Origin: a virus
DNA: 40,097 nt
Virus record (IMG/VR): IMGVR_UViG_3300026512_000032
Span: 1 to 40,097 of that record
Strand: one strand, 5' to 3'
The translations under genes and the position numbers were made by a program. The notes under the pieces were generated by a model. It worked only from the letters and a program-made list of their open reading frames with translations. It did no database searches and had not been told where the DNA came from. Shown here piece by piece: positions 9,953 through 32,799 of this stretch. Within the stretch, counting starts at the first letter, position 1; each line of letters begins with the position of its first letter.

Positions 9953-11284
9953 ATGGATATTAATTCAAAAGAATACAGAAAACCATTAGATGATTGTTTG
10001 GTTAATATGGCAACATCTAGTTATTATCAAAAGAACGCATTATTTTATTTTCATATACTTACTCAAATGAATATAGTAATGTCTCCTACTTTACCAGCAC
10101 CTTGTGGTGTTTCATTTACACACAATCATTTCAACTTATATGTAAATATGGAATTATTTAATGAATATAGTTTAGAGGAGCGTATTTTTATTTTAATACA
10201 CGAATGTTTACATTGTACTATGGGACACCTAGGCGAGGATGGTAGACTTTCTGGTCCAAATATTGATCACGAAAACGCTAATTATGCTGAAGATTGTTCT
10301 ATAAATCAGATGATTAATATGACAATACCGGAAAGTGCTATTGTACCAGATAATCTCCTAAAAGATAAAACAGTATATGTAAAACCAAATATGAACTCCG
10401 AGTTTTATTATAATTTACTTAAAGACAATGAAAAAGATGATTCTAATCAAAATGACAAATCGGATGACGGTGACGGCGATAGTCAAGGTAGTGGTAACCC
10501 TAATAAAAGTCAAGGTAGTGGTAACCCTAATAAAAGTCAAGGTAGTGGTAACCCTAATAAAAGTCAAGGTAAAAGAAAACCAATAGACACACATGACACA
10601 TGGGCAGAAAGCACAGGCGATAAAGATTTACAAAAAGATATAACAGCACAATTAATTGAAAAAGCTATAGAGGAAACCGTTAAAGATCGTGGTACATTAC
10701 CACAAAATATAGAACATATGATGAATATGTTCAAAAGAAAAGTACAAATTGATTGGAAAAAAGTACTTAGAAACATTGTTGGTAACAAAAGAGTAGGTAA
10801 AACACCAACAATTAGAAAACGCTCTAGACGATTTCAAAACCGTGCAGACATAAAAGGATACCAAAAAGACAGAATGTTTGAATTAGTTGTTTTTGTAGAT
10901 ATTTCAGGAAGTATGAATGATAGTGAAGTACTTCAAGGGTTAAACGAAATATCAAGTATTTGTAAAACATTTAATACTACAATGAAACTTATTCAAATAG
11001 ATACGGAAGTACATAAAGTAGAAGAGTTTTCAAAAAGAACTAAACTATTCGATAGAAGAGGTGCAGGTGGTACAATTATGGAAAAAGGTGCAGATTATCT
11101 GTTCAAATCGAAAATACAATATGACGCTATTATTTTTATCAGTGATATGTATGTAGAGGATATCAGACAATGGAAAAAACAACCAAAGTGTAAAGTAATG
11201 TGGTTAGCAACAAGTGATTGTATTCCGGAATGGAATGGATGGGGTAAACATAAAGTATATCCGATAAAAGTAAAAGAGGTATAA
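9953..11284 (+). CDS. Metallopeptidase-like protein with C-terminal VWA domain
   Basis: A 443-residue two-domain protein. The N-terminal domain has a zinc-peptidase-like site, LIHECLHCTMGHL (HECLH at 83-87), followed by NYAEDCSIN, as in the DUF2201 family. Residues 175-205 are a low-complexity hydrophilic linker with three exact copies of SQGSGNPNK. The C-terminal VWA-like domain begins around 310 with VVFVDISGSMNDSE, an intact MIDAS motif (DxSxS). Such proteins usually work with a MoxR-type AAA+ ATPase, and one lies 1.4 kb downstream in the same direction. The substrate is unknown: chaperone or remodelling activity on a protein complex is typical of MoxR-VWA pairs. Confidence 0.8.
   Translation: MDINSKEYRKPLDDCLVNMATSSYYQKNALFYFHILTQMNIVMSPTLPAPCGVSFTHNHFNLYVNMELFNEYSLEERIFILIHECLHCTMGHLGEDGRLSGPNIDHENANYAEDCSINQMINMTIPESAIVPDNLLKDKTVYVKPNMNSEFYYNLLKDNEKDDSNQNDKSDDGDGDSQGSGNPNKSQGSGNPNKSQGSGNPNKSQGKRKPIDTHDTWAESTGDKDLQKDITAQLIEKAIEETVKDRGTLPQNIEHMMNMFKRKVQIDWKKVLRNIVGNKRVGKTPTIRKRSRRFQNRADIKGYQKDRMFELVVFVDISGSMNDSEVLQGLNEISSICKTFNTTMKLIQIDTEVHKVEEFSKRTKLFDRRGAGGTIMEKGADYLFKSKIQYDAIIFISDMYVEDIRQWKKQPKCKVMWLATSDCIPEWNGWGKHKVYPIKVKEV
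10481..10571 (+). repeat. 27-bp tandem repeat in the VWA gene linker
   Basis: Three exact 27-bp units (10481-10507, 10508-10534, 10535-10561) plus a partial fourth. Each encodes SQGSGNPNK. The exact identity at the DNA level suggests recent expansion by slippage. The unit length keeps the reading frame. Confidence 0.95.
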
Positions 11285-11285
11285 T

Positions 11286-11567
11286 ATGAGTAAATGGGCT
11301 TATGTAAATTCATTAGGAATGTTTGAATTAGAAAAAAGAAATAATGAGTATTATATACCAAACACATATCAGGAAGTTAATGACTATTTTGATACTGAAG
11401 AAGAAGCAAAAATACATTATTATAACGAAACAATTAAAAAATATGACTCAGAAAAAAAAGAATTAGAAAAAAGAATTAGAAAATTAGAACAACTTCAAAC
11501 TGAAACAAAACAGTTTTTTAAAATAGACGAACTCAAAAAAAGTCATCCAGAACACTTTTTTGAGTAA
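11286..11567 (+). CDS. Coiled-coil hypothetical protein
   Basis: A 93-residue protein starting one base after the VWA gene stop. Residues 1-45 are mixed (MSKWAYVNSLGMFELEK; EEEAKIHYYNE), and residues 55-80 form a Lys/Glu coiled coil (SEKKELEKRIRKLEQLQTE). No function is known. Tight linkage suggests it is made with the VWA protein. Confidence 0.5.
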   Translation: MSKWAYVNSLGMFELEKRNNEYYIPNTYQEVNDYFDTEEEAKIHYYNETIKKYDSEKKELEKRIRKLEQLQTETKQFFKIDELKKSHPEHFFE

Positions 11568-11585
11568 TGACTAAAAGGATTAAAA

Positions 11586-11747
11586 ATGAACAAATTAGAG
11601 AAATTTAAAATAAACATTATCAGAAATTTTGAAAGATATGATGAAAAGATAGAACATTATAGAAATATTTTAAATATGACTAAATACAAACCCACATATA
11701 GAGATCTGGAGTACACAAATAAACGAAGAAAACAACAAGGAATATAA
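11586..11747 (+). CDS. Small basic hypothetical protein
   Basis: A 53-residue frame starting after AAAAGGATTAAA, with MNKLEKFKINIIRNFERYDE at the start and a very basic end (NKRRKQQGI). Its TAA overlaps the next ATG as TAATG, a layout seen several times in this window, which supports it as a real gene. No family is recognised. Confidence 0.5.
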   Translation: MNKLEKFKINIIRNFERYDEKIEHYRNILNMTKYKPTYRDLEYTNKRRKQQGI

Positions 11748-12592
11748 TGATACCATTTAGTAAATATTTTAAATCAGTATTAATTGAAATAAAAGATTTT
11801 AATTTCTTTGTTGCTGGTGGTAGTGTAAGTGCATTACACTATAATCTTAGAGTGGAACAAGATCTTGATATATTTTTTCGTACTGAAAAAGACTTTTTAA
11901 AACTTAAATCATATTTTGACGAACATTATTTCCTTGCTAATGAATCTGTACACGCATGTTCATATTATGATAATAAAAAGTTTGGCGAAGCTCAAGACAA
12001 AATTATTATACAGTTAGTAAAAACACAATTTGGTACACCCGAAAAAGTTATTTCTAATTTTGATATTAATAAAAGTATGATAGCCCTTGACATTAAAAAT
12101 AAGGATTTAATATATGACCCAAGATTTTGGGAACCTTTACATGCTTGTAATTATAATCACGACACACTTAAACGATTAGCAAAATATAGTGATAGGGTGA
12201 AAGAAACACCAGATTGGTATATGTTAATATCTAAATTTCTTGAAGATTTTGAAGTGAATAATTATTATACAGATAATAAACACAAATCAAAATTAATTCT
12301 TAAAACATTTCTTAAAAATTACCTTGCTACATCATATTCAAATGATGTAACATTAGAAATATCAAAAGCACTTCAAAAATTTATCATTAATACAGAGTGG
12401 GTAAAATTTCTAGAATGTGTGTTTATACCATATGATACTTCTACAGACATATACATTATCCAAGTATTGTATTACAAATACTTTACTTCGATAACAAGTG
12501 ATAATATGTTTAAGAATAATGAAATTAATAAAAGATTACAAATGTATGGTGCACAAATAAAGAAAAAGAACCCAGAATACTTGTTTTTTTAA
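11747..12592 (+). CDS. Nucleotidyltransferase-like protein
   Basis: A 281-residue protein. FFVAGGSVSALHYNLRVEQD (20-39) followed by LDIFF matches the Pol-beta-type nucleotidyltransferase signature GGS...DxD, as in tRNA nucleotidyltransferase and related phage proteins. The C-terminal 140 residues are helical and do not resemble the RNA-binding domains of CCA-adding enzymes, so the substrate is uncertain (a protein, an RNA end or a small molecule). It sits between the VWA and MoxR genes and overlaps the preceding small gene by one base. Confidence 0.65.
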   Translation: MIPFSKYFKSVLIEIKDFNFFVAGGSVSALHYNLRVEQDLDIFFRTEKDFLKLKSYFDEHYFLANESVHACSYYDNKKFGEAQDKIIIQLVKTQFGTPEKVISNFDINKSMIALDIKNKDLIYDPRFWEPLHACNYNHDTLKRLAKYSDRVKETPDWYMLISKFLEDFEVNNYYTDNKHKSKLILKTFLKNYLATSYSNDVTLEISKALQKFIINTEWVKFLECVFIPYDTSTDIYIIQVLYYKYFTSITSDNMFKNNEINKRLQMYGAQIKKKNPEYLFF

Positions 12593-12600
12593 GTATTTTT
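12576..12600 (+). terminator. Terminator at the end of the nucleotidyltransferase gene
   Basis: AATACTT pairs with AAGTATT around a T-rich loop and is followed by a run of T (12596-12600). It overlaps the last codons of the gene. Confidence 0.5.
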
Positions 12601-12633
12601 GGTTTGATTTAAGTGTACTTTTATATAATTTAG

Positions 12634-12641
12634 TGTATAAT
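12634..12641 (+). promoter_or_regulatory. Extended -10 promoter of the MoxR gene
   Basis: TGTATAAT with the upstream tract TTTAAGTGTACTTTTATATA, matching the recurring early-type pattern. Confidence 0.6.
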
Positions 12642-12666
12642 ATAATATATAAAAAGGATAAACAAA

Positions 12667-13788
12667 ATGAAAATTTCAGAAATAGAACCACTATTAACAG
12701 CTTGTCAAGCAGTAAACGATGCGTTATTATTAATCGGTGTTCATGGTATTGGTAAATCAGATGTGGTAGAAACATGGGCAAAGAAAAATGATGTACACTT
12801 AGAAATTTTATTTTTAAGTAACCAAGAAGTGGGCGACCTTGTAGGAATTCCACATAATGTTATTAAAGATGGCAAAACTATTGAAGAATGGTCTGTACCT
12901 AGTTGGTTGGATAGATTAAATACTGCTAGTGCAAATGGTAAAAGAACGGCATTATTTTTGGATGAAATATCGAGAGCACCAAGTGATGTTAAACAAGCAG
13001 CACTTCAATTAGTTCTTGCTAAAAAAATACACGAACATAAACTTCCTACATTAGATGGTACAGATACTTTGATTGTTGCAGCAGACAATCCTGATAATGG
13101 TCACTATCAAGTAGAACCAATGGACCCTGCTTTATTAAATAGGTTTTTAAATGTTACTGTTGATGTAGACCCAGAAGCGTGGTTAGATTGGGCGAGGGAT
13201 AACGGTATTAGTAAAATTGTTAGAGCGTTTATTGCAGATAACCCTAGTAAATTACACTTCATGCCAGAAGAAGGAGATAATGGGGATAACACCTCTGCAA
13301 CTCCTAGATCATGGGCTAAACTAGGTGCTTATGTAGATAATTTTAATAATATAAATTCTAATCTACATTATCCTATTATTAAAGGTAAAATTGGCAGTGC
13401 TATTGCTGCTCAATTTGTTTCATTTATTGAAAACTACGCATCTATTATTAGTGTGGAAGATGTTGAAAACTTAACAAGCAATCTTAAAAAGAAAACATCG
13501 AATATTGAGTTGATTGGTAATGGTGTTCGTGAGTTAATTCAAGATTCTGAAAGTATTCAATTACAAGAAATTACTATGGCTCTTATAAACAAATATATAG
13601 ATAAAGACGCTGAAGAAGCATACCCATTAATGGCAATGTTATATGCATTACACATCGAAATTCTTGTATCAGTGTTTAAAAAAATAGCAAAAGAATCACC
13701 TGCTAATTATAAAAAAATAGTAGATTTTGATACTAAAATAAATAACAAACAATTATTTATTAAAGCAGCAGAAGCAGTTGTTGTTTAG
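12667..13788 (+). CDS. MoxR-type AAA+ ATPase
   Basis: A 373-residue ATPase. The Walker A motif is GVHGIGKS (24-31) and Walker B is TALFLDEI (94-101), followed by SRAPSDVKQAALQLVL, as in MoxR enzymes. NPDNGHYQVEPMDPALLNRF carries the sensor and arginine-finger region. MoxR proteins act with VWA-domain partners to remodel protein complexes; the VWA/metallopeptidase gene upstream is the obvious partner. It has a separate promoter and ends at a strong bidirectional terminator. Confidence 0.88.
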   Translation: MKISEIEPLLTACQAVNDALLLIGVHGIGKSDVVETWAKKNDVHLEILFLSNQEVGDLVGIPHNVIKDGKTIEEWSVPSWLDRLNTASANGKRTALFLDEISRAPSDVKQAALQLVLAKKIHEHKLPTLDGTDTLIVAADNPDNGHYQVEPMDPALLNRFLNVTVDVDPEAWLDWARDNGISKIVRAFIADNPSKLHFMPEEGDNGDNTSATPRSWAKLGAYVDNFNNINSNLHYPIIKGKIGSAIAAQFVSFIENYASIISVEDVENLTSNLKKKTSNIELIGNGVRELIQDSESIQLQEITMALINKYIDKDAEEAYPLMAMLYALHIEILVSVFKKIAKESPANYKKIVDFDTKINNKQLFIKAAEAVVV

Positions 13789-22269: not shown

Positions 22270-22671
22270 ATGGTATATGAAAGTTTATTAGAAGATTTTG
22301 AATTAGTAGTTGGCGATTCTTCAGAAGTATATATGCTTCTGTCGCCAAGTGTAGATTCATTTAGTAACGAAGATCCATTAAAACCTAGTGAATGGGAATG
22401 TCATATGGCTATTACTGAAGAATTAGAAGACACTAGTCCAGTTTTAGTTAGACCCGTCCCGTTAAATGAAGAATTATTAAATGATAATGGTACAGTAAAA
22501 GAACCAAAAGGCAAATATTTTGTAGTGCAAATTACTCCAGAAGAAAGTTCGTTATTAGAACCCGGTATTAAATATTGGTTTGTAGTACAAGTAAAAAATG
22601 ATGAATTAGGTTACAAACAAGAATTAATTCAATGTAGATTAAAAGCAAAAAAACAAGGAATATTTAGATAA
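22270..22671 (+). CDS. Tail-associated beta-domain protein
   Basis: A 133-residue acidic protein that looks like an immunoglobulin-like or fibronectin-like beta domain (SSEVYMLLSPSVDSF; GKYFVVQITPEESSLLEPGI then KYWFVVQVKND), ending in a basic tail. This pattern occurs in small tail proteins. It overlaps the following peptidase-like gene by one base and is expressed late. Confidence 0.5.
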   Translation: MVYESLLEDFELVVGDSSEVYMLLSPSVDSFSNEDPLKPSEWECHMAITEELEDTSPVLVRPVPLNEELLNDNGTVKEPKGKYFVVQITPEESSLLEPGIKYWFVVQVKNDELGYKQELIQCRLKAKKQGIFR

Positions 22672-23123
22672 TGATTGTAACAATAGCACTAAAAAAGAAA
22701 ACATCTACAAAATTAATAGATAAAATAATAGCAAGTTTAATTAAATGGAAAACAAAGTCAGAATATTTTCATGTTGAAATGATAATAAAAAATAAATGGA
22801 TAAGTACTAATCCAACTGCAAACACGGTTTATATTCACGATTTATTGCCGCTAAATGATCATTATGATTATTTTAATATAAACATACACGGTGCTAAAGT
22901 TAACAAAATGTTAAAATTTGCTGAAAGCCAAGTAGGTAAAAAATATGACTGGAAAGGTATATTTTTATCACAAGCAGTAGATTTTAATATAGATAATAAA
23001 AATAAATGGTTTTGTTCTGAATTTGTTGCGGAAATGTTAAAAATTGGTGGGTATAATACTAATAATAAACCGTCAAACCAATATTCCCCTGAAGATATTT
23101 ATCAATTAGTAAAAACAGTATAA
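22671..23123 (+). CDS. Permuted papain-like (YiiX/NlpC-P60-related) cysteine hydrolase
   Basis: A 150-residue protein with the order His then Cys found in permuted papain-like hydrolases: YFHVEMIIKNKW (His near 34), GKKYDWKGIFLSQA (about 88-101), then NKWFCSEFVAEML with the candidate Cys near 114. YiiX-like enzymes cut amide or ester bonds in peptidoglycan or lipids. At the end of a tail operon it may be a virion-associated hydrolase that assists DNA entry, but no tail-anchoring domain is seen. Confidence 0.65.
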   Translation: MIVTIALKKKTSTKLIDKIIASLIKWKTKSEYFHVEMIIKNKWISTNPTANTVYIHDLLPLNDHYDYFNINIHGAKVNKMLKFAESQVGKKYDWKGIFLSQAVDFNIDNKNKWFCSEFVAEMLKIGGYNTNNKPSNQYSPEDIYQLVKTV

Positions 23124-23220: not shown

Positions 23221-24780
23221 TTGGAAGATTTAATATTCGCAGAAAACGCTAGAATAAAGATGTTATCTGGTGTAACAAAGCTTACAAGTGCAGTTCAATG
23301 CACAATGGGACCAAAAGGTCGTAATGTACTCATTCAAGAAAAATTTAGAAGTCATCTAACTAAAGATGGTGTAACAGTTGCTAAAAATGTTAAGCTACAA
23401 GATAATATTGAAAGCATTGCAGCAGAATTGGTAAAAGAAGTAGCATCGAAAACTGCAGATGAAGCAGGTGATGGAACAACAACTGCAACAGTTTTAGCAC
23501 ACGAACTTTATTCACTTGGTATTAAAAATGTGACAGCAGGAGCAAATCCACTTGAAATTAAACAAGGTATGGATTTAGCATTAACAGATGTTTTAGATGA
23601 ACTTAAATTGCATACAGTAGATGTTACAGATTATAAAGAAATTGTTAATGTAGCAACTATTAGTGCTAATGGTGATTCAAATATTGGTGAAATTGTTGCT
23701 AAAGCAAATTTTGAAGTAGGTCAAGACGGATTAATTACAGTTGAAACTGGTATGGGTCTTGAAGATGAACTTAAAATTACTAAAGGGTTACAATTCTTTA
23801 ATGGATATCAATCTCCATACTTTGTAAACAATACAGCAAAAATGGAAGTAAATATGGAAAACCCTTATGTATTACTTTATAATGATCGTATTCCAAACTT
23901 AAAAGCAATTTTACCATTTCTAGAAAAAGCACAAAATGAAAAGAAACCATTACTTATTATATGTAATACTATTGACGAAGAAGCTATTAACACTTTAGTT
24001 GTTAATAAAATGCGTGGAAATCTTGATGTATGTGTAGTTAAATCTCCAGGTTTTGGTAATATTACAGATTATCTTGAAGATATTCGAGTAATGACGGGTG
24101 GTAATATTCAAAATCCATCAAAAGGTGTAGTAATTACGGATGTTTCGAAAGATATAGGAAAAGCAACAAGTGTAACAGTAACATCAAAATCATGTTCTAT
24201 TGTTTGTAAAGATGCAAATGAAGATTTAGTTCTTGATAGAGTTAATGAACTAAAAGAATTATTAGAAACAGATACTTTACTTAAAGACCAGATAAGACAA
24301 CGAATTGCTAAATTAGCGGGTGGTGTAGCAGTTATTAAAGTACAAGCACCTTCTGAAGTTGAGATGAAAGAGAAAAAAGACCGTGTTGATGACGCACTAG
24401 GTGCTATTAAAGCTGCACAAGAAGAAGGCATTGTTATTGGTGGTGGTACAGCATTTTTTAAAATTAACTTATCAAAAAATCTTCAAACTATCGATGGCGA
24501 TGTTGCTCTTGGATACAAAATTGTATTAGATGCTATTAAAAGACCGTTTAATCAAATACTTTTAAATGCTGGTTTAAGTCCTGATAAAATTGCTATGGGT
24601 ATTGAGGAAACACCACAAACAGGTTATGATGCAAGAAATGATGTGTATGGTGATCTTTACAAATTAGGTGTTATAGACTCTTATAAAGTTCAAAGAGTAG
24701 CACTTACAAATGCTATTTCTGTTGCTAGTACTTTACTTACTACAGAATGTATTATTCCACTACAAGAAAATACTAAATAA
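23221..24780 (+). CDS. groEL: Chaperonin GroEL (Hsp60), phage-encoded
   Basis: A 519-residue chaperonin subunit. Conserved ATPase blocks are present: [12 protein letters not shown] near 28-39, [17 protein letters not shown] with the nucleotide-site Asp, and [20 protein letters not shown] with the catalytic Asp. The apical and intermediate domains align through [20 protein letters not shown]. It ends [14 protein letters not shown] and lacks the flexible GGM-repeat tail of bacterial GroEL. The TTG start follows AAAGGAT. No GroES is seen in this window, so it must use a host or distant phage co-chaperonin or act alone. It probably folds capsid or other late proteins. Confidence 0.97.
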
Positions 24781-25448: not shown

Positions 25449-25473
25449 AATTACATTTATTAAGTAATATTAA

Positions 25474-25481
25474 TGTATAAT
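25474..25481 (+). promoter_or_regulatory. Extended -10 promoter of the clpP variant
   Basis: TGTATAAT. It lies inside a possible 11-codon upstream extension of the ClpP-like frame, which argues for the start at 25506. Confidence 0.55.
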
Positions 25482-25505
25482 ATAGATAACATAAAAAGGA
25501 AATAT

Positions 25506-26141
25506 ATGACAAAAGACACTGATAAAAATACACACGGAAGAAATCACTCACTATATACAATACCAAAAGTAACAACTACAAATAACTATAAATTGTTTGT
25601 TGATACTTTTTTTGATACTTCAACAGAAATACATAAAATATGGAACACATTACTAAGTGCTACAGAAAATGATACTCTAGAATTAAGAATTCAATCACCA
25701 GGCGGGCTTGTTACAGAATGTCAAATGTTAGTAAACATTATGAAAAATAAATTTAATGGTAGAGTAACAGCATATATTGATTCGCACGCTAGTTCAGCAG
25801 GAGCATTTACATTTTGTGCAGCAGACAAACGAGTTGTATTTGAAAACTCAAGAATAATGTTACATAATTATTCTGGCGGACATCAAGGCACACACCATAA
25901 AATGAAAACAAGATTAGATTTTGATACAGTTCATATTATCGATTTTCTTAAAAGTACACTAAAAATTGGTAAAAAAGGTTACTTAACAAATAAAGAACTT
26001 GATAGAATGATAGAAGGTCATGAATGGTGGTTTACTGCTAAGGAAATGTGTAAAAGAGGAATTGCAACTCATGTAATTGTTAATGGAAAAGAAATTACAG
26101 CAAAACAATACTTAAAATCATTAAAAACATCTAAAAAATAA
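25506..26141 (+). CDS. clpP: ClpP-like serine peptidase, variant catalytic triad
   Basis: A 211-residue ClpP/crotonase-fold protein. An ATG at 25473 would add 11 residues but overlaps the promoter; ATG 25506 has AAAAAGGAAA. RIQSPGGLVTECQMLV (61-76) forms the oxyanion region. SHASSAGAF holds the nucleophile S97, and IMLHNYSGG holds H120. The position of the usual catalytic Asp (RD-x-F-M-S-A in ClpP) reads HE-W-W-F-T-A here, giving E173. Activity could be kept with Glu or reduced. A canonical ClpP lies 2 kb downstream, so a mixed complex is possible. The C-terminus is basic (ITAKQYLKSLKTSKK). The clamp loader gene starts 10 nt downstream. Confidence 0.82.
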   Translation: MTKDTDKNTHGRNHSLYTIPKVTTTNNYKLFVDTFFDTSTEIHKIWNTLLSATENDTLELRIQSPGGLVTECQMLVNIMKNKFNGRVTAYIDSHASSAGAFTFCAADKRVVFENSRIMLHNYSGGHQGTHHKMKTRLDFDTVHIIDFLKSTLKIGKKGYLTNKELDRMIEGHEWWFTAKEMCKRGIATHVIVNGKEITAKQYLKSLKTSKK

Positions 26142-26151
26142 AGGAAAAACA

Positions 26152-27069
26152 ATGAATGTAAACAAAAATCAGAGCATCTGGATGGAGAAATATCGTCCGG
26201 TTGATACAAATGATTTAGTTCTTCCGGAAAGTATTAAACAAAAGTTTAATCAATATGCTAAAAATGAAGATATTCCTAACCTCGGATTATGGTCAAATAA
26301 TCCAGGTACTGGTAAAACTTCTACAGCAACTGCACTTATTAAAGAAATTGGTGGTGAAGCACTATTTATTAATGCATCAATGGATAATGGTATTGATGTT
26401 TTAAGATCACAAATTTCAAATTTTGCAAGTACGGAATCGTTTGATGGTAAACTTAAAATTGTTGTACTAGATGAAGTCGATAACCTTTCGCAATCAGCAC
26501 AATTCGCTTTTAGAAGTCTTATTGAATCGTTTTCAAATAACTGTAGATTTATTCTTACAGGCAACTTCAAAGAAAAAATGCTTGACCCATTACTTGATAG
26601 ATTAGAAAACTACGATTTTAATAACTTCGACAAAAAAGAAATGGTAAAACCTATCTTTGAAAGACTTAAAGCAGTACTTGAAAATGAAAAAATTACATAT
26701 GATCCAAAAGACCTAGTGCCAATTATAAACACTTATTATCCGTCGATTAGAAGTATGATAGGTGCTTTACAAAAGTTCTCAAGTACAGGAACACTTGTTA
26801 TTAATGCTGGTGACTTAGATAACCAAACAGAATATAATGCTATTGTAGATACAGTTAAAGCAAAAGATTTTAATGGTATGGTTAATTTAGTAAATGAACT
26901 AACATCACCAGATAATATGTACACTTATATGTATAAAACAGTATCGACATTTGAAGAAAAAATGCCTCAAGTAGTTATGATACTAGCAAAATATCAATTC
27001 CAAGCAGGATCTGTTAGAGATAAAAATTTAAATCTCGCAGCCGCACTAACGGAAATCATGAACTCATAG
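26152..27069 (+). CDS. 44: Sliding clamp loader large subunit, gp44-like
   Basis: A 305-residue AAA+ ATPase of the RFC/gp44 type that loads the sliding clamp for replication and late transcription. WMEKYRPVDTNDLVLPES opens the protein as in RFC small subunits. The Walker A motif is NNPGTGKTS (49-57) and Walker B is IVVLDEVD (103-110). FASTESFDGKLKIVVLDEVD matches T4 gp44 closely. The SRC motif is altered to DRLENY. Its partner subunit (gp62-like) is at 33220. It starts 10 nt after the ClpP-like gene. Confidence 0.9.
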   Translation: MNVNKNQSIWMEKYRPVDTNDLVLPESIKQKFNQYAKNEDIPNLGLWSNNPGTGKTSTATALIKEIGGEALFINASMDNGIDVLRSQISNFASTESFDGKLKIVVLDEVDNLSQSAQFAFRSLIESFSNNCRFILTGNFKEKMLDPLLDRLENYDFNNFDKKEMVKPIFERLKAVLENEKITYDPKDLVPIINTYYPSIRSMIGALQKFSSTGTLVINAGDLDNQTEYNAIVDTVKAKDFNGMVNLVNELTSPDNMYTYMYKTVSTFEEKMPQVVMILAKYQFQAGSVRDKNLNLAAALTEIMNS

Positions 27070-27100: not shown

Positions 27101-28249
27101 ATGATTAAAACTAATTTAGGAATAATGGCTAATGGTGAAAATTTCACCATTGAAACTGCTATTACATATCAAAGAATATTGGAAGCAGGATATATTTATC
27201 CTTTATCAGAAATATGTTTGGAAGCGGAAAATAAAGATAAACTTATTGTTAAACTTAATAAATACGGTTGTAAATCATATGACTTTAATTCAAAAGATGG
27301 TAATTATCAAATATTTGAGTGTGATGATTTTATAATGAATATGATTGTAGACAATAAAAATTTATACATTACATCATATTGTAAAACACTTAAAATATCA
27401 GAAGAACTTCATAAAATTTTAATGTCGCTTGAACCAAAAGCAGCAGATATTGAATTATATATGGATAATTATTATCTTGGCCCACAAGGAACACTAGATC
27501 ATAATCTTAAAGTGTTTAAGTATTCGGATTATGAATATGCAAATAACTTATATTATCCATATATTAAAACGGATGCTATGTTTAAACAACTATACACAAA
27601 TAAAGAAAACATTATGATTTTATGCGGAATACCTGGAACAGGTAAAACATCATTAATTTCACAATTATTTAAGTTCACTTTACAAAATCCTGAATTTCTT
27701 TACACAGAAAATGATATTATGCGTCAAGATGATATGTATGTAAATGTTGCTTATGTAAAATCAACAGAAGTACTTGCTAGTGACGAGTTTTGGAGGACAT
27801 TAAGTGCTAAATCATATGATTTAGTTATTTTAGATGACTTAGATTATTTTTTAACATCAAGGGATCAAGAAATACAAACACAAGAAGATGCAGAAAGAAA
27901 CAAGTTTTTATCACAATTTTTAAGTTTTACAGATGGTATAGAAAAAAATAACACAAACTTTGTTATTACTACTAATCAAATGTTTAACGATATTGACAGT
28001 GCTTTACTAAGAAAAGGTAGATTATTTGATATACTCGAACTTAGAGAACTCACAAACGAGGAAGCACTTACCATATGGGAAGGTTCAGGATTACTTGAAA
28101 AGGACTTTATGTTTGACGGTGATGTGTTACAAGCAGATTTGGGTTCGGAAATTGAAAAACACTTGAATAAAGATGTAGTAATTGAAGAATATTTACTAGA
28201 CAATACAGTTTCAAGACTGAAAAAATATAACAAAAAAATAGGATTTTAA
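27101..28249 (+). CDS. AAA+ ATPase ending in IGF, candidate ClpP partner
   Basis: A 382-residue ATPase. The N-terminal 160 residues are a domain I do not recognise. The Walker A motif is GIPGTGKT (176-183) and Walker B is LVILDDLDYF (241-250). FVITTNQMFNDIDSALLRKG carries sensor 1 and an arginine finger typical of classic AAA proteins. The last three residues are I-G-F (380-382). Clp unfoldases dock onto ClpP through an (I/L/V)-G-(F/L) tripeptide, normally in a loop; here it forms the free C-terminus. The next gene, one base away, is a canonical clpP. The inference is a two-gene ATP-dependent protease. Substrates are unknown; tmRNA-tagged proteins are an attractive guess. Confidence 0.75.
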   Translation: MIKTNLGIMANGENFTIETAITYQRILEAGYIYPLSEICLEAENKDKLIVKLNKYGCKSYDFNSKDGNYQIFECDDFIMNMIVDNKNLYITSYCKTLKISEELHKILMSLEPKAADIELYMDNYYLGPQGTLDHNLKVFKYSDYEYANNLYYPYIKTDAMFKQLYTNKENIMILCGIPGTGKTSLISQLFKFTLQNPEFLYTENDIMRQDDMYVNVAYVKSTEVLASDEFWRTLSAKSYDLVILDDLDYFLTSRDQEIQTQEDAERNKFLSQFLSFTDGIEKNNTNFVITTNQMFNDIDSALLRKGRLFDILELRELTNEEALTIWEGSGLLEKDFMFDGDVLQADLGSEIEKHLNKDVVIEEYLLDNTVSRLKKYNKKIGF

Positions 28250-28250
28250 T

Positions 28251-28826
28251 ATGATATTATTACCAGATATAATTGAGACTGTAGGTCGTAACAAAAAGAT
28301 TTTCTCGATACCAACCAAATTATTTGAACAAAATATAATTACTTTATTCGATGATATTGATGATGATAGTGCATACTCTATTATCACTCAATTAATATAC
28401 GCAGATACTATTAATACACAAGAACCTATTAATTTATATATTAAGTCGGATGGCGGATCTGTCACTGCAGGTCTTGCAATTTTAGATACTATAGAATCTA
28501 TGCAAAGAAAAGTAAACACAGTTGGTATTGGTCAATGTGCTTCGATGGGTCAAGTTATTTTATCGTGTGGTACTGGTGAAAGAAAAGTACTAAAAAATAC
28601 AAGAGTAATGATGCACTCTGTATCATCAGGAACTGGTGGAACTGTTCATGATCAAATTGTGCAATTAGAAGAAACTAAATTTTTACAAGAAAAATTAATG
28701 ACTATTATTACAAATTCTACAAAAGGTAAATTATCTTTAGACGAAATTAAAAAAATGACACAAAGAGATAAGTTTATGAGTGCAGAAGAATGTGTAAAAT
28801 ACGGGTTAGTTGATACTATTGTTTAA
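28251..28826 (+). CDS. clpP: ClpP peptidase, canonical triad
   Basis: A 191-residue ClpP, the normal length without a long propeptide. YIKSDGGSVTAGLAILD forms the oxyanion strand. GQCASMGQVILSCGTG holds S98, RVMMHSVSSG holds H122, and QRDKFMSAEECVKYGLVD holds D173: a complete Ser-His-Asp triad in the same spacing as bacterial ClpP. Alone ClpP cuts only peptides; protein substrates require an AAA+ partner, which the immediately preceding gene is likely to provide. The one-base spacing implies coupled synthesis. Confidence 0.94.
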   Translation: MILLPDIIETVGRNKKIFSIPTKLFEQNIITLFDDIDDDSAYSIITQLIYADTINTQEPINLYIKSDGGSVTAGLAILDTIESMQRKVNTVGIGQCASMGQVILSCGTGERKVLKNTRVMMHSVSSGTGGTVHDQIVQLEETKFLQEKLMTIITNSTKGKLSLDEIKKMTQRDKFMSAEECVKYGLVDTIV

Positions 28827-28875: not shown

Positions 28876-30489
28876 ATGAAACTATTTGAAACAGCATGGT
28901 CTAAAAATTATCAATATTTTGAAAGAGTTTATGACACAGAAACTAAAAAGTCCACAGTACATCCTATTAAATTAACAGCAGAATGGTATGAAGAAGATTC
29001 CCGTGGTGAATATATGAGTATTCTTGATGAAACCGTTAGATTAACAAAAAATCAAGGTAATGCTAAAGATGGTAGAAATCATTGGGGATTTATTGACCCA
29101 ATTTATCGTAATATTAAAGATAATTATTGGAATGAACATCAAAAACATACTTTTAATAAAACACCTAGAGTGTGGTTCTGCGATATAGAGACTAGGGTTG
29201 GACAGAATTCTGTAGGATTTCCAGTACCTACTAAAACACTCGAAGAAATTTCGATGTTTCAAATATTTGATAGTGAATTACAAACTATTATTTTATTTGG
29301 TGTTAGAGAGTGGAAACACCAATCGGATTATAAACTTGATTACGCTGTTAAATATATACAATGTACAGATGAAATTGATATGATTGATAAATTTCTACAA
29401 ACATTTAAGGCATTAAATCCTTTAATTATTTATGCATGGAATGGTAATGGATTTGACTTCCCTTACATTTATAATCGTATGAAATTGCTTGGTATGGATA
29501 CTAACAAATTATCAAATTATGGTGATGTTAAACTTAAAGAAAAAAATATAGGGCATAAAACAGTTTGGGATCTAACTTCACAAGGACATCACTTTATAGA
29601 TTTACTTGAAGTTTATCAAAAGTTTACATTTGGGGAACAAGCATCGTTTAGTCTTGATTTTACTGCAGAATTAGTGCTTGGTAAGAAAAAAGTAGATCAT
29701 AGCGAATATGTAGCGTTTGATGATTTTTACACAGGTAAGTATGTTATTCCAAAAAAACCAACAGAAGAACAAAAAAACTCTAAAATATATAAAGAAGCAA
29801 TAGCAGGTAATTGGGATGAAGTTAGAGAACTTGCTCATTCAGATTTTGTGTATTATGGTGCTATCGATACAGTTTTAACCAAGGAAATAGATGATGCTAG
29901 AAATTTAACATCATTAATGTTTATGATTGCTGAAAAAATGGGGGTTCTTATAAGTGATTCTATGGGTACAGTTAAACCATGGACAAAATATATCACAAAT
30001 AAAGCACTTTTAGATAAAAAAGTTATTCCTAAATTACAAATTGACGAAGAAGTGGATGTAAGTATTAAAGGTGGATTTGTTGCAGACCCACAAGTAGGTA
30101 AACACAAATGGATTATGTCTTCTGATGTTAACTCTATGTACCCGTTACTTGGTATGGTTGGATTTAATATGAGTCCAGAAACATATATACCTATACACAA
30201 ACTTCCGGTAGATATTAGAACAATTATTTTGAAGTATTATAATAACGAAGAAGAATCTGAACGATTTAGTATTCCAGAAGAAGTTAAAGAAAATCTTAAA
30301 GTGTTACTAAATAAATATAATTATTCAATGGGTATAAATGGTGCTATATTTACCAAAGATAAATTAGGTATGGTTCCAGAAATGGTTAGTGATATTTATA
30401 AAACAAGAAAAGTAGACAAACAAACTGCATTTAAATATGAAAAGCGTTCACTAGAAATTAAAGAAATACTAAAAAATAGAGGAGTTTAA
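28876..30489 (+). CDS. 43A: DNA polymerase family B, N-terminal part (exonuclease and palm motif A)
   Basis: The 537-residue N-terminal part of a gp43-type replicative polymerase. Exonuclease motifs are intact: VWFCDIETR (Exo I), IIYAWNGNGFDFPYIYNRM (Exo II) and DFVYYGAIDTVLTKEIDD (Exo III). Polymerase motif A is SSDVNSMYPLLG, followed by MSPETYIPI. The gene ends in the fingers (KRSLEIKEILKNRGV) and the rest is encoded 1.2 kb downstream. There is no intein sequence at the break, so the two chains must assemble non-covalently, as known for split gp43 of some Aeromonas T4-like phages. The next gene starts directly after the stop codon. Confidence 0.92.
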   Translation: MKLFETAWSKNYQYFERVYDTETKKSTVHPIKLTAEWYEEDSRGEYMSILDETVRLTKNQGNAKDGRNHWGFIDPIYRNIKDNYWNEHQKHTFNKTPRVWFCDIETRVGQNSVGFPVPTKTLEEISMFQIFDSELQTIILFGVREWKHQSDYKLDYAVKYIQCTDEIDMIDKFLQTFKALNPLIIYAWNGNGFDFPYIYNRMKLLGMDTNKLSNYGDVKLKEKNIGHKTVWDLTSQGHHFIDLLEVYQKFTFGEQASFSLDFTAELVLGKKKVDHSEYVAFDDFYTGKYVIPKKPTEEQKNSKIYKEAIAGNWDEVRELAHSDFVYYGAIDTVLTKEIDDARNLTSLMFMIAEKMGVLISDSMGTVKPWTKYITNKALLDKKVIPKLQIDEEVDVSIKGGFVADPQVGKHKWIMSSDVNSMYPLLGMVGFNMSPETYIPIHKLPVDIRTIILKYYNNEEESERFSIPEEVKENLKVLLNKYNYSMGINGAIFTKDKLGMVPEMVSDIYKTRKVDKQTAFKYEKRSLEIKEILKNRGV

Positions 30490-30741
30490 ATGAATTCACA
30501 TGAATTACATGAACTTCTTAACAAAAAGCAACATTTTTTCCAAAAAGCAATAGACGCATTAAATAAAAATGATAAACAAACCGCATATAAATTGTTTAAT
30601 ATAGAACAAGGTTTTAGTCAAAGTATTTCTAAATTATTACATTCTTCTGAATATAATACATATACAAAACCAGATATTGATGCTATTAATGACATAGAAA
30701 CATTATATGAGGATACAAAGGAACAGGAGCAAGAATGGTAA
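30490..30741 (+). CDS. Small helical hypothetical protein
   Basis: An 83-residue protein with a TPR-like or helical-hairpin look (FFQKAIDALNKNDKQTAYKL then FNIEQGFSQSISKLL) and an acidic tail (EDTKEQEQEW). It starts directly after the polymerase N-part stop and overlaps the phosphoesterase gene, so all three share a message. Function unknown. Confidence 0.5.
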   Translation: MNSHELHELLNKKQHFFQKAIDALNKNDKQTAYKLFNIEQGFSQSISKLLHSSEYNTYTKPDIDAINDIETLYEDTKEQEQEW

Positions 30742-31400
30742 TTACATTTATTTCAGATACACATAATAAACATCGTAATATAAAAATGCCAAAATTAGAT
30801 AACAATAGAACAAATGTTATAGTTCATAGTGGTGATTTTTCACATTCTCAAAAGCAATTTGACGATTTTTTATTATGGTATTCTGAACTTCCTGGATATG
30901 ATTACCGTATTCTAATTCCTGGTAACCACGAAACTATGGTAGAAAAAGATCCGGAAATGTTTTTTAGAACCTGTAAAGAACTAAATCTTATAGGTTTAAT
31001 TGACCAAGAAGTAGTGATAAATGGTGTTAAATTTTATGGTTCTCCTTGGACACCAATGTTTTATAATTGGGCATTTATGAAAGAGGATTATTTACTAGAT
31101 ATGTATTGGGACAAAATCCCTAAAGATACTAATGTTTTAATAACACATGGTCCAGCACACGGAATTCTTGATGGTGTTATACATTATGGTGTTGGTGAAT
31201 GTGTAGGTTCATACACATTATCAGATGCTATTGACGGTTTAAAAGAACTAAAAATACATACATTCGGACATATTCATTGTGCAGCTGGTGCATATAAAGA
31301 AAATGGTATTTTAAGAATTAATGCAAGTTCTGTGACAGATAGTTATACATTAACAAAACATGGTCCATATATTATAGATTACAATAATATAAAAATTTAA
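30735..31400 (+). CDS. Calcineurin-like metallophosphoesterase
   Basis: A 221-residue enzyme. Metal-binding motifs appear in canonical order: FISDTH (D8, H10), VHSGDFSH (GD), PGNHE (62-66), ITHGPAHG and FGHIH near the end. This set predicts a two-metal phosphatase, phosphodiesterase or nucleotidase; the substrate cannot be read from sequence. Related small phosphoesterases occur in many phages. It lies inside the split polymerase locus and overlaps the upstream small gene by seven bases. Confidence 0.88.
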   Translation: MVITFISDTHNKHRNIKMPKLDNNRTNVIVHSGDFSHSQKQFDDFLLWYSELPGYDYRILIPGNHETMVEKDPEMFFRTCKELNLIGLIDQEVVINGVKFYGSPWTPMFYNWAFMKEDYLLDMYWDKIPKDTNVLITHGPAHGILDGVIHYGVGECVGSYTLSDAIDGLKELKIHTFGHIHCAAGAYKENGILRINASSVTDSYTLTKHGPYIIDYNNIKI

Positions 31401-31412
31401 CAAATATTGTTA

Positions 31413-31418
31413 TATAAT
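31413..31418 (+). promoter_or_regulatory. Sigma-70-like promoter inside the split polymerase locus
   Basis: TATAAT preceded by ATTGTTA. It gives the polymerase C-part a message of its own, with the 82-residue gene first. Confidence 0.5.
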
Positions 31419-31436
31419 ACAAAATAAAGGAAATAA

Positions 31437-31685
31437 ATGTCAAAAGAATCAGAAAAAATACTTAAAAAAACATTAAAAGAAAAATTGTACGAAGCAAATG
31501 TAATGTTAGAAACACAAAAAGCAAGTTATGATTATAATAGTTATATGCATGGAATGTATAATGGTATGGAATTTATTATTTCTATTATAGAAGAAAGAGA
31601 ACCTATGTTTTTGGAGTCACCAGATGTTTGGAGTGAAGATAAATCAATAAGTGCTTTTCCAACAAAGGAAGATACTAATGAGTAA
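31437..31685 (+). CDS. Hypothetical protein upstream of polymerase C-part
   Basis: An 82-residue helical protein (EKILKKTLKEKLYEANVMLE; YMHGMYNGMEFIISIIEE). Its 3' end overlaps the polymerase C-part start by eight bases, and its coding sequence contains the AAAGGAAG used as the ribosome site for that gene. Function unknown. Confidence 0.5.
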   Translation: MSKESEKILKKTLKEKLYEANVMLETQKASYDYNSYMHGMYNGMEFIISIIEEREPMFLESPDVWSEDKSISAFPTKEDTNE

Positions 31686-32799
31686 AGATGTTTTAGAATA
31701 TACACACGAAGAACTGCTCCAAATGAGTGATGACGAACTTATTGCATTACAAAAAGAAGCAAATAATAAAAATTCACTATTTAATACTTCCCAATTAGTC
31801 CAAAAGTTGCTCATAAATTCACTTTATGGTGCACTAGCAAACCGCTATTTTCCACTATTCAACCAAAATATTGCACGAGCAATTACAGGTAATGGTAGAT
31901 ACTTTATTCAAAAAATGTCAAAATATATAGAAGAAGGTTTACAAGCAATGATTCCTTCTAGGATTCCTTATGTATTCTATAATGATACGGACAGCGGATA
32001 TTTTACTGTAGATAAATTTGTAGAAAAAGCATTTCAAAATAAACCAGATGCTACTAAAATCGATAAAGTAGAATTTTGTGATAAATTTTATAATCAAGTA
32101 GTAGATAAATTTGTACAGAAAAGTATTGACGATTTTGGTAAAGAGTATAATGCTTATAATACAGATGTTATAGGTTCAGAAAGAGAAATCATCGCAGATG
32201 CGGGAGTTTGGACTGCTAAGAAAAAATATTTTGCTCGTGTTATAGATTCAGAAGGTGTTAGATACAAAGAACCTAAGCTTAAAGTTATGGGTCTTGACAT
32301 TATTAGGTCTGGGACACCTACATTTGTTAAGAAAAAACTTAAAGAGTCGCTAGATATTATTTTAGATTCTGATGTCGAATCTATGATAAAATGGAAAGAT
32401 AATGTTAAATTAGAATTTATGAAACAAAATTTGAATGATATTGCTAAAGTACAAGGTGTTTCTAATATTGACTATGAACCAGGTGCTAAAGGTGTTCCTA
32501 TTGGTGCTAGAAGTGTTTTAGTACATAACGAATATATTAAAAAACTTAAAATAGAAAACGAAATACAGTTATTAGATGCAGGAAATAAAGTTAAACTTGC
32601 ATATCTTAAAGAACCAAATATATTTAATTCCAATGTAATTGCTTGGAGTGATGATAAATTTGTGGACATATTAAAAGATTCTAATTGTATTGATTATGAA
32701 TTAAATTTTGAAAAGTTTTTTCTGTCACCATTAGAACTTATGACAAATGCACTAAATTGGAATCTTAGAAAAGAAACTGCTAGTCTCGACGATTGGTAG
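31678..32799 (+). CDS. 43B: DNA polymerase family B, C-terminal part (motifs B and C, thumb)
   Basis: 373 residues completing the split gp43. The frame opens at 31651, but ATG 31678 has a proper AAAGGAAG site and is preferred. After a 40-residue acidic helical lead come motif B, QKLLINSLYGAL (KxxxNSxYG), and motif C, FYNDTDSGYF (DTDS), then the thumb with KKKYFARVIDSEGVRYKEPK and KVMGLDIIRSGTP. The C-terminus ends SLDDW, possibly a clamp-binding peptide as at the T4 gp43 tail. It must pair with the product of 28876-30489 to form an active enzyme. Confidence 0.92.
   Translation: MSKDVLEYTHEELLQMSDDELIALQKEANNKNSLFNTSQLVQKLLINSLYGALANRYFPLFNQNIARAITGNGRYFIQKMSKYIEEGLQAMIPSRIPYVFYNDTDSGYFTVDKFVEKAFQNKPDATKIDKVEFCDKFYNQVVDKFVQKSIDDFGKEYNAYNTDVIGSEREIIADAGVWTAKKKYFARVIDSEGVRYKEPKLKVMGLDIIRSGTPTFVKKKLKESLDIILDSDVESMIKWKDNVKLEFMKQNLNDIAKVQGVSNIDYEPGAKGVPIGARSVLVHNEYIKKLKIENEIQLLDAGNKVKLAYLKEPNIFNSNVIAWSDDKFVDILKDSNCIDYELNFEKFFLSPLELMTNALNWNLRKETASLDDW

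Follow-up and report, generated by a model that had tools for sequence, protein, structure and literature searches.

HslU (ClpY) engages its peptidase by C-terminal tails, which dock between the HslV subunits. HslU belongs to the Clp clade, and HslV is an N-terminal-nucleophile peptidase, not ClpP. To our knowledge, the ClpP partners described so far dock via a loop in Clp-clade ATPases; docking by the C-terminus has been described for the partners of the proteasome and of HslV. The tripeptide (L/I/V)-G-(F/L) is the element by which ClpX and ClpA dock on ClpP (PMC8745299). In mycobacteria, Mpa/ARC and Bpa bind the 20S proteasome through the C-terminal motif GQYL (PMC6017811, PMC8142254, PMC8223512), and Bpa itself was discovered through this signature (PMC8223512).

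We analysed the IMG/VR virus record IMGVR_UViG_3300026512_000032, positions 1 to 40,097 (40,097 nucleotides, hereafter called the window). It encodes an AAA ATPase with the C-terminus NKKIGF, in which IGF is residues 380–382; the stop codon TAA occupies positions 28247–28249, and the ATG of clpP follows one base further on, at 28251 (Table 1). A preliminary description of the locus had pointed out the exact IGF ending and, directly after it, a canonical, triad-complete clpP. Both hold, with Ser, His and Asp of the ClpP at the positions of E. coli S97, H122 and D171. The best reading of the sequences is that a classic-clade, Bcs1/PAN-like phage ATPase docks by a flexible C-terminus on ClpP, either that of the phage or that of the host, or on the 20S proteasome.

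Table 1. Features at and around the ATPase gene, in window coordinates
Feature	Positions	Strand	Remarks
AAA ATPase gene, 382 aa, classic AAA clade	27101..28249	+	PF00004, PHROG 11907 ‘ATPase’
N-terminal alpha/beta domain, approximately residues 1–140, without a known family; candidate for substrate or partner binding	27101..27520	+	
Walker A, GIPGTGKT, residues 176–183	27626..27649	+	G/K invariant in 54 family members
Walker B, LVILDDLD, residues 241–248, Asp replacing the catalytic Glu	27821..27844	+	D246 in 54/54
Sensor 1 and SRH, FVITTN...ALLRKGR, residues 287–307, two arginines	27959..28021	+	N292, R304 and R307 in 54/54
C-terminal tail, predicted flexible, residues 362–382	28184..28246	+	No secondary structure; pLDDT <50 at 377–382
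Terminal IGF tripeptide after KK, proposed motif for ClpP docking	28238..28246	+	Codons ATA GGA TTT
Likely clpP Shine-Dalgarno (AGGA), sharing bases with the IGF codons	28240..28243	+	From the sequence; 7-base spacing
clpP, 191 aa, complete Ser-His-Asp triad	28251..28826	+	PF00574, 5e-49
Divergent second ClpP-like protein of 222 aa with Ser and His, the Asp position being taken by Glu	25473..26141	+	
T4-type clamp loader large subunit, gp44-like	26152..27069	+	Upstream neighbour of the ATPase, conserved in relatives
DNA polymerase family B, N-terminal part	28876..30489	+	Conserved downstream neighbour

Architecture of the window ATPase

The AAA module matches Pfam PF00004 (2e-15), and the PHROG 11907 match spans residues 142–381. 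The N-terminal domain, described earlier as unrecognised, indeed has no Pfam domain in its approximately 140 residues, and the PHROG match begins only behind it. We predicted the structure of the ATPase with 30 related sequences (mean pLDDT 83, pTM 0.66). The model consists of a folded N-domain, confident except for residues 1–13, an AAA module bearing a small lid of helices, and a tail that starts near residue 362. This tail is predicted to be flexible: it has no secondary structure, and the confidence is lowest at residues 377–382. As in the ClpP-docking class, the (L/I/V)-G-(F/L) motif of the window ATPase is located on a segment of predicted flexibility.

Does the protein have the residues of a working motor? 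The Walker motifs had been called intact. This is correct for Walker A, which is invariant in all 54 aligned family members, as are the sensor-1 Asn and both SRH arginines. It is not correct for Walker B, where the position of the catalytic Glu is Asp in every one of the 54 members; the window ATPase has DD and not the DE of motor-type ATPases. The aromatic-hydrophobic-Gly sequence of pore loop 1, characteristic of unfolding motors, is also missing. At the loop position inferred from the predicted secondary structure, there is only a short LASD before Phe230-Trp231, with no aromatic-x-Gly, and the Phe-Trp after this position is kept in most of the family. Because of the Walker B substitution and the missing aromatic in pore loop 1, unfoldase activity of the window ATPase is not assured.

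The homology of the AAA module, Walker B of the form [DE]D, the sensor-1 Asn and the two SRH arginines place the protein in the PHROG 11907/phiKZ gp208-like family. Its direct homologues, namely the PHROG 11907 proteins of Campylobacter and Vibrio phages and the phiKZ gp208-like proteins, are annotated only as ATPase. Among curated families, the proteasome-activating nucleotidases (PAN), FtsH and CDC48 are nearest to the AAA module, and all score far below cut-off (PAN, 32.6 bits against a cut-off of 700). Profile matches in the PDB are Cdc48/p97 and Rpt subunits. With PF00004, PAN/FtsH/CDC48 and Cdc48/Rpt as the only matches, we rejected membership in the Clp clade. An IGF loop of the ClpX type was rejected as well, as only about 8–14 residues separate FVITTN from ALLRKGR and the IGF lies at 380–382. 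PADLOC gave only weak P-loop matches, and an assignment to a defence system was rejected.

The window ATPase resembles ClpX, ClpA and ClpC: it is an AAA+ ATPase, its (L/I/V)-G-(F/L) motif lies on an element predicted to be flexible, and a triad-complete ClpP is encoded beside it. It differs from them in that its motif is C-terminal, whereas theirs lies in a mid-domain loop, and in that it belongs to the classic AAA clade, with both SRH arginines and nothing inserted between these and sensor 1. The Walker B Asp, the lack of an aromatic pore loop 1 and the lack of any Clp-family match further separate it from these enzymes. With PAN, Rpt1–6, Mpa/ARC and Bpa/PafE, it shares a putative docking peptide at the very C-terminus, and the PAN models are its nearest curated relatives. 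In contrast to the proteasomal ATPases, however, most members of the phage family have an IGF-like motif, the PAN cut-off is far from being reached, and the N-domain is unlike a coiled coil in its predicted secondary structure. The use of C-terminal tails, as proposed here, is also the docking mode of HslU on HslV.

The nearest folds are Bcs1 (best; E 4e-10, TM ~0.45), the 26S Rpt subunits and p97. Bcs1 likewise has a single classic AAA domain after an N-domain, while the window ATPase gives no indication of a membrane or Rieske-protein function. As the TM-score is low, the similarity to Bcs1 probably rests mainly on the AAA domain. We know of no docking of Bcs1 on a protease.

Constraint on the C-terminus and its exchange for GQYL

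We gathered the homologues of the ATPase by sequence similarity, without using the C-termini as a criterion. A single-sequence search of the IMG/VR viral contigs gave no matches; alignment queries yielded 13 and then 46 loci in these contigs, and two in GTDB genomes. The closest homologues in cultured phages are those of the Vibrio Va1-like phages (43–44% identity over the full length) and of the Campylobacter Fletcherviruses (approximately 44% over the AAA part). Distant relatives from phiKZ, PS119XW, Phabio, FBKp24, GAP32, XbC2, ME3, PA5oct, FLC9, CM1, D69, BONAISHI, two Vibrio Zobellviridae and others were added, giving a total of 54 proteins.

After removal of sequences more than 80% identical, 25 of 34 homologues end in [ILVM]G[FLIVM] plus at most one residue, as do 11 of 631 other proteins from the same loci. 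When up to four residues after the motif are allowed, the 54-protein set divides into 28 members with the strict [ILV]G[FL], 10 with a looser form, three with GQYL and 13 with none. Within the last seven residues, the strict motif is present in 28 of the 51 non-mycobacterial members (55%) versus 14 of 1730 unrelated tails from the same loci (0.8%), and the loose [ILVMFA]G[FLIVM] in 38 of 51 versus 34 of 1730 (~2%). Only one of 90 other P-loop proteins has the strict motif. Counted by clusters at 45% identity, the motif occurs in 23 of 29 overall.

When the tails are right-justified at the motif, carriers have Lys or Arg at −1 in 82% and at −2 in 68%, and the linker carries little information. 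Most relatives of the window ATPase end in KK-IG-F/L. Tails of the relatives include IGLI in the Campylobacter phages, RVGF in phiKZ gp208 and IGFGN in PA5oct. The glycine is absent from MSL (Va1/pv27 and locus L058), MKL (L048), ISL (L055), ITL (L057) and STF (L077), and the more distant D69, VPMCC5, 177E37 and BONAISHI proteins have no motif-like tail; BONAISHI has a ClpP. Many relatives with the motif are less than 40% identical, and most have no adjoining clpP. Taken together, these comparisons support strong constraint on the C-terminal tripeptide across a divergent ATPase family.

Could the IGF be a functionless by-product, left by shared ancestry or by the Shine-Dalgarno sequence of clpP being read in frame? 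In the window, the AGGA does overlap the IGF codons at ideal spacing. Across the relatives, however, the glycine is encoded by GGA, GGT, GGC and GGG, and the motif is kept where no gene follows closely, sometimes with hundreds of bases to the next gene. The IGF is thus not caused by the Shine-Dalgarno of clpP. Despite a diverging linker, the motif also recurs in 22 of the 28 non-mycobacterial clusters separated at 45% identity, the background is only about 1–2%, and a by-product would not account for the exchange described next. We therefore regard this explanation as scarcely credible.

Four homologues, Myrna gp262, those of Phabba and ScoobyDoobyDoo, and that of the IMG/VR contig L297, end exactly in GQYL (VGQYL). 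The Phabba and ScoobyDoobyDoo proteins are 66% identical to that of Myrna, and the one from the 167-kb IMG/VR contig is 57% identical. The membership of these homologues is based on the family profile, which the Myrna protein matches with an E-value of 2e-17, and from a tblastn search with Myrna gp262, in which all matches were phage ATPases of the same kind as the window ATPase. None of the 1821 other proteins of the collected loci has a G-x-Y-L ending, and the window ATPase itself has no C-terminal GQYL. The mycobacteriophage members thereby have exactly the peptide of Mpa and Bpa. Of the hosts named in this comparison, only Mycobacterium is known to possess such a 20S proteasome.

A single family would thus use the ClpP key in proteobacterial phages and the proteasome key in mycobacteriophages, with the tail tracking the compartmental peptidase of the host. 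It is difficult to account for this swap without docking of the tail on a compartmental peptidase, and the swap is what C-terminal docking in the manner of proteasome activators, as put forward in the preliminary description, predicts. The motif, the constraint on it throughout the family, its exchange for the proteasome key of the host and the active-site residues of the ATPase can be read directly from the sequences. Together with the predicted flexibility of the tail, they make docking on a peptidase a well-supported proposal. The activity of the docked ATPase as an unfoldase stands on less firm ground. As far as sequence tells, the earlier interpretation is partly supported: its central idea appears right, and we extend it beyond the single locus to a family of phage ATPases.

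Candidate partner peptidases

Which peptidase would the tail engage? The preliminary description tied the IGF to the neighbouring clpP and called for conservation of the ending beside clpP. Directly after the ATPase, clpP is found in the window and in loci L034 (59% identical) and L035 (48%), whose tails are IGF, IGF and LGF, respectively. Elsewhere in the same record, clpP occurs in Va1 and pv27, approximately 14–16 kb away, and in all five other IMG/VR records of 111–206 kb. All seven ATPase-bearing records of at least 100 kb in the window's own branch, outside Fletchervirus, encode ClpP. Among clamp-loader-positive, ATPase-negative contigs of at least 75 kb, a small sample, any ClpP-like protein was found in two of six and a high-scoring one in none of six. 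The link is not strict in either direction. Va1/pv27 (MSL), L048 (MKL) and L077 (STF) have ClpP in the same record and lack the exact tripeptide, which counts in part against the earlier proposal by the refuting condition set in the preliminary description. Conversely, Fletchervirus and phiKZ carry the motif without a detectable phage clpP. In the Fletcherviruses (genomes of 132–135 kb, tails IGLI), no ClpP of either type was detectable, nor was a phage ClpP in phiKZ, PS119XW, Phabio, FBKp24, ME3, FLC9 or the Myrna group; GAP32, XbC2, PA5oct and CM1 do encode one. As some of these phages have no detectable ClpP, the partner of the ATPase may be the phage ClpP or a host peptidase. A search started from ClpP (80 loci) yielded L035 again and no further AAA family with a C-terminal IGF next to clpP.

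These findings bear on the main rival to the protease reading, in which the ring docks on host ClpP or 20S by its C-terminal tails, feeds no substrates, and by capping the peptidase blocks ClpX/ClpA/ClpC or Mpa, protecting phage proteins. The evidence for docking fits such a decoy equally well. In phiKZ, Fletchervirus and Myrna, where phage clpP is undetectable, the target must be the host peptidase, and an Asp where the catalytic Glu is expected, like the lack of an aromatic pore loop 1, suits a weak motor. With LASD before Phe-Trp where the canonical aromatic pore loop would be, the case for docking is stronger than that for unfolding, and capping is a serious rival. A mere plug, however, would not need the ATPase residues that are invariant in the family. 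The direct linkage to an intact-triad phage clpP in the window, L034 and L035, and the clpP in seven of seven large non-Fletchervirus records of the window branch, also speak for a productive enzyme. On balance, we consider capping rather unlikely.

The docking pocket of these ClpPs is unusual at one position. Tyr60, Tyr62 and Phe82 (E. coli numbering) correspond to pocket residues of Streptomyces ClpP, in which Ser can stand at position 60; in B. subtilis, ClpP mutants of Y62 and F82 are defective in ADEP binding (PMC11005422). The window ClpP retains Tyr62 in the apical pocket and has Ser in place of Phe82. In the ClpPs of ATPase-bearing records, Tyr62 is present in 15 of 17, and Ser, Asn or Thr occupies position 82 in 12 of 17. 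Position 82 is Phe, Tyr or His in 61 of 66 other phage ClpPs, a set only partly checked for the ATPase and with shared ancestry uncontrolled. PA5oct, with the tail IGFGN, has Tyr there. The polar residue may form a private docking surface, or it may weaken the IGF model for these ClpPs. The same pattern, polar at 82 in many ATPase-bearing phages and aromatic in PA5oct and most others, was noted for L292–L294 with the phage ClpP set.

The second ClpP-like gene of the window sits just upstream of the clamp loader and has relatives in Campylobacter Firehammervirus phages; its product shares 39% identity with the ‘probable phage ClpP protease’ of phage CP220, in which we looked for the ATPase and did not find it.

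Proposed mechanism and gene neighbourhood

We consider it probable that the phage ATPase ring docks on ClpP via its C-terminal IGF tails and, once docked, opens the gate and feeds in proteins chosen by the N-domain, forming a phage-controlled ATP-dependent protease. The steps would be as follows. The ATPase would first assemble as a ring. The terminal I-G-F would enter the hydrophobic clefts between the ClpP subunits, as the C-terminal counterpart of the mid-domain loop of ClpX/ClpA. In the window phage, the ClpP whose gene starts one base further on is the most likely partner; where phage ClpP is absent, the partner would be host ClpP, and in mycobacteriophages the 20S proteasome, engaged through GQYL. 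The docked ATPase would then open the gate of the peptidase, and the N-terminal domain would choose the proteins for delivery. We infer productive degradation by the ATPase–peptidase pair with more reserve than docking, as the absent canonical pore-loop aromatic weakens it.

In its general form, the proposal is that the C-terminal keys are interchangeable on one widespread phage classic-AAA family, with [ILV]G[FL] for ClpP in proteobacterial phages and GQYL for 20S in mycobacteriophages, redirecting a peptidase of the phage or host to chosen targets; we hold the case for it to be evenly balanced. On this view the ring might also fit the sevenfold symmetry of ClpP, since Bcs1, the nearest fold, is heptameric (C7 PDB entries). 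As the tails are the ClpP-docking peptide or, in the mycobacterial-phage members, the proteasome-docking peptide of the host, phages probably use these little-studied ATPases to take over or arm protein-destroying machines. If true, ClpP and 20S keys on one ATPase scaffold would link both classes of AAA+ proteases, would account for ATPases that stand unannotated in phages studied in depth (gp208 of phiKZ, those of Campylobacter Fletchervirus, gp262 of Myrna), and would suggest that phages commonly command their own or host proteolysis. The predictions are directly testable in the laboratory systems P. aeruginosa/phiKZ and M. smegmatis/Myrna. In the former, gp208 (tail RVGF) is reported to sediment in high-molecular-weight complexes during infection, with partners unknown (PMC10914614), which counts towards the docking proposal. 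In the open-access literature (subscription journals and preprints outside), our searches turned up no account of a phage AAA protein ending in IGF, of GQYL in any mycobacteriophage, or of a protease-docking tail of PHROG 11907/phiKZ gp208-like proteins.

The gene order offers another interpretation, in which the ATPase is a replisome factor that belongs with the flanking clamp loader and polymerase genes and binds the phage sliding clamp with its tail. The order gp44–ATPase–polymerase is found in most loci of the window branch, and clamp-binding peptides are often C-terminal, as in T4/RB69. The polymerases of the same loci, however, have acidic/aromatic ends (LDDW or similar), not IGF, whereas the ATPases end in basic KKIG[FL], and we rejected the clamp-binding reading of the motif. 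The Campylobacter (topoisomerase), phiKZ and Myrna (PRPP synthetase/NAMPT) members have other neighbourhoods, and a clamp motif would not predict GQYL in mycobacteriophages. A replisome role is thus very improbable.

Several further features of the neighbourhoods were observed. The family B DNA polymerase of the window (28876–32799) is encoded by two ORFs, which a small ORF and a phosphoesterase gene separate, and the split is also present in Va1-like phages and IMG/VR relatives. Distant ATPase members adjoin NAD-salvage genes, encoding ribose-phosphate pyrophosphokinase and nicotinamide phosphoribosyltransferase, in Vibrio phage D69 (L006:1457–5771) and Mycobacterium phage Myrna (L269:1047–4728). 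A GroEL/TCP-1 family chaperonin gene (window 23221–24780) lies near both clpP-like genes, as well as upstream in L035, and is immediately preceded by a gene for an enoyl-CoA hydratase-like phage protein (phrog_1128; 22671–23123). Finally, window positions 9953–13788 encode a pair of the MoxR–VWA type: a VWA/DUF2201 putative metallopeptidase-like protein comes first, and a MoxR-like AAA_5 ATPase follows at 12667.
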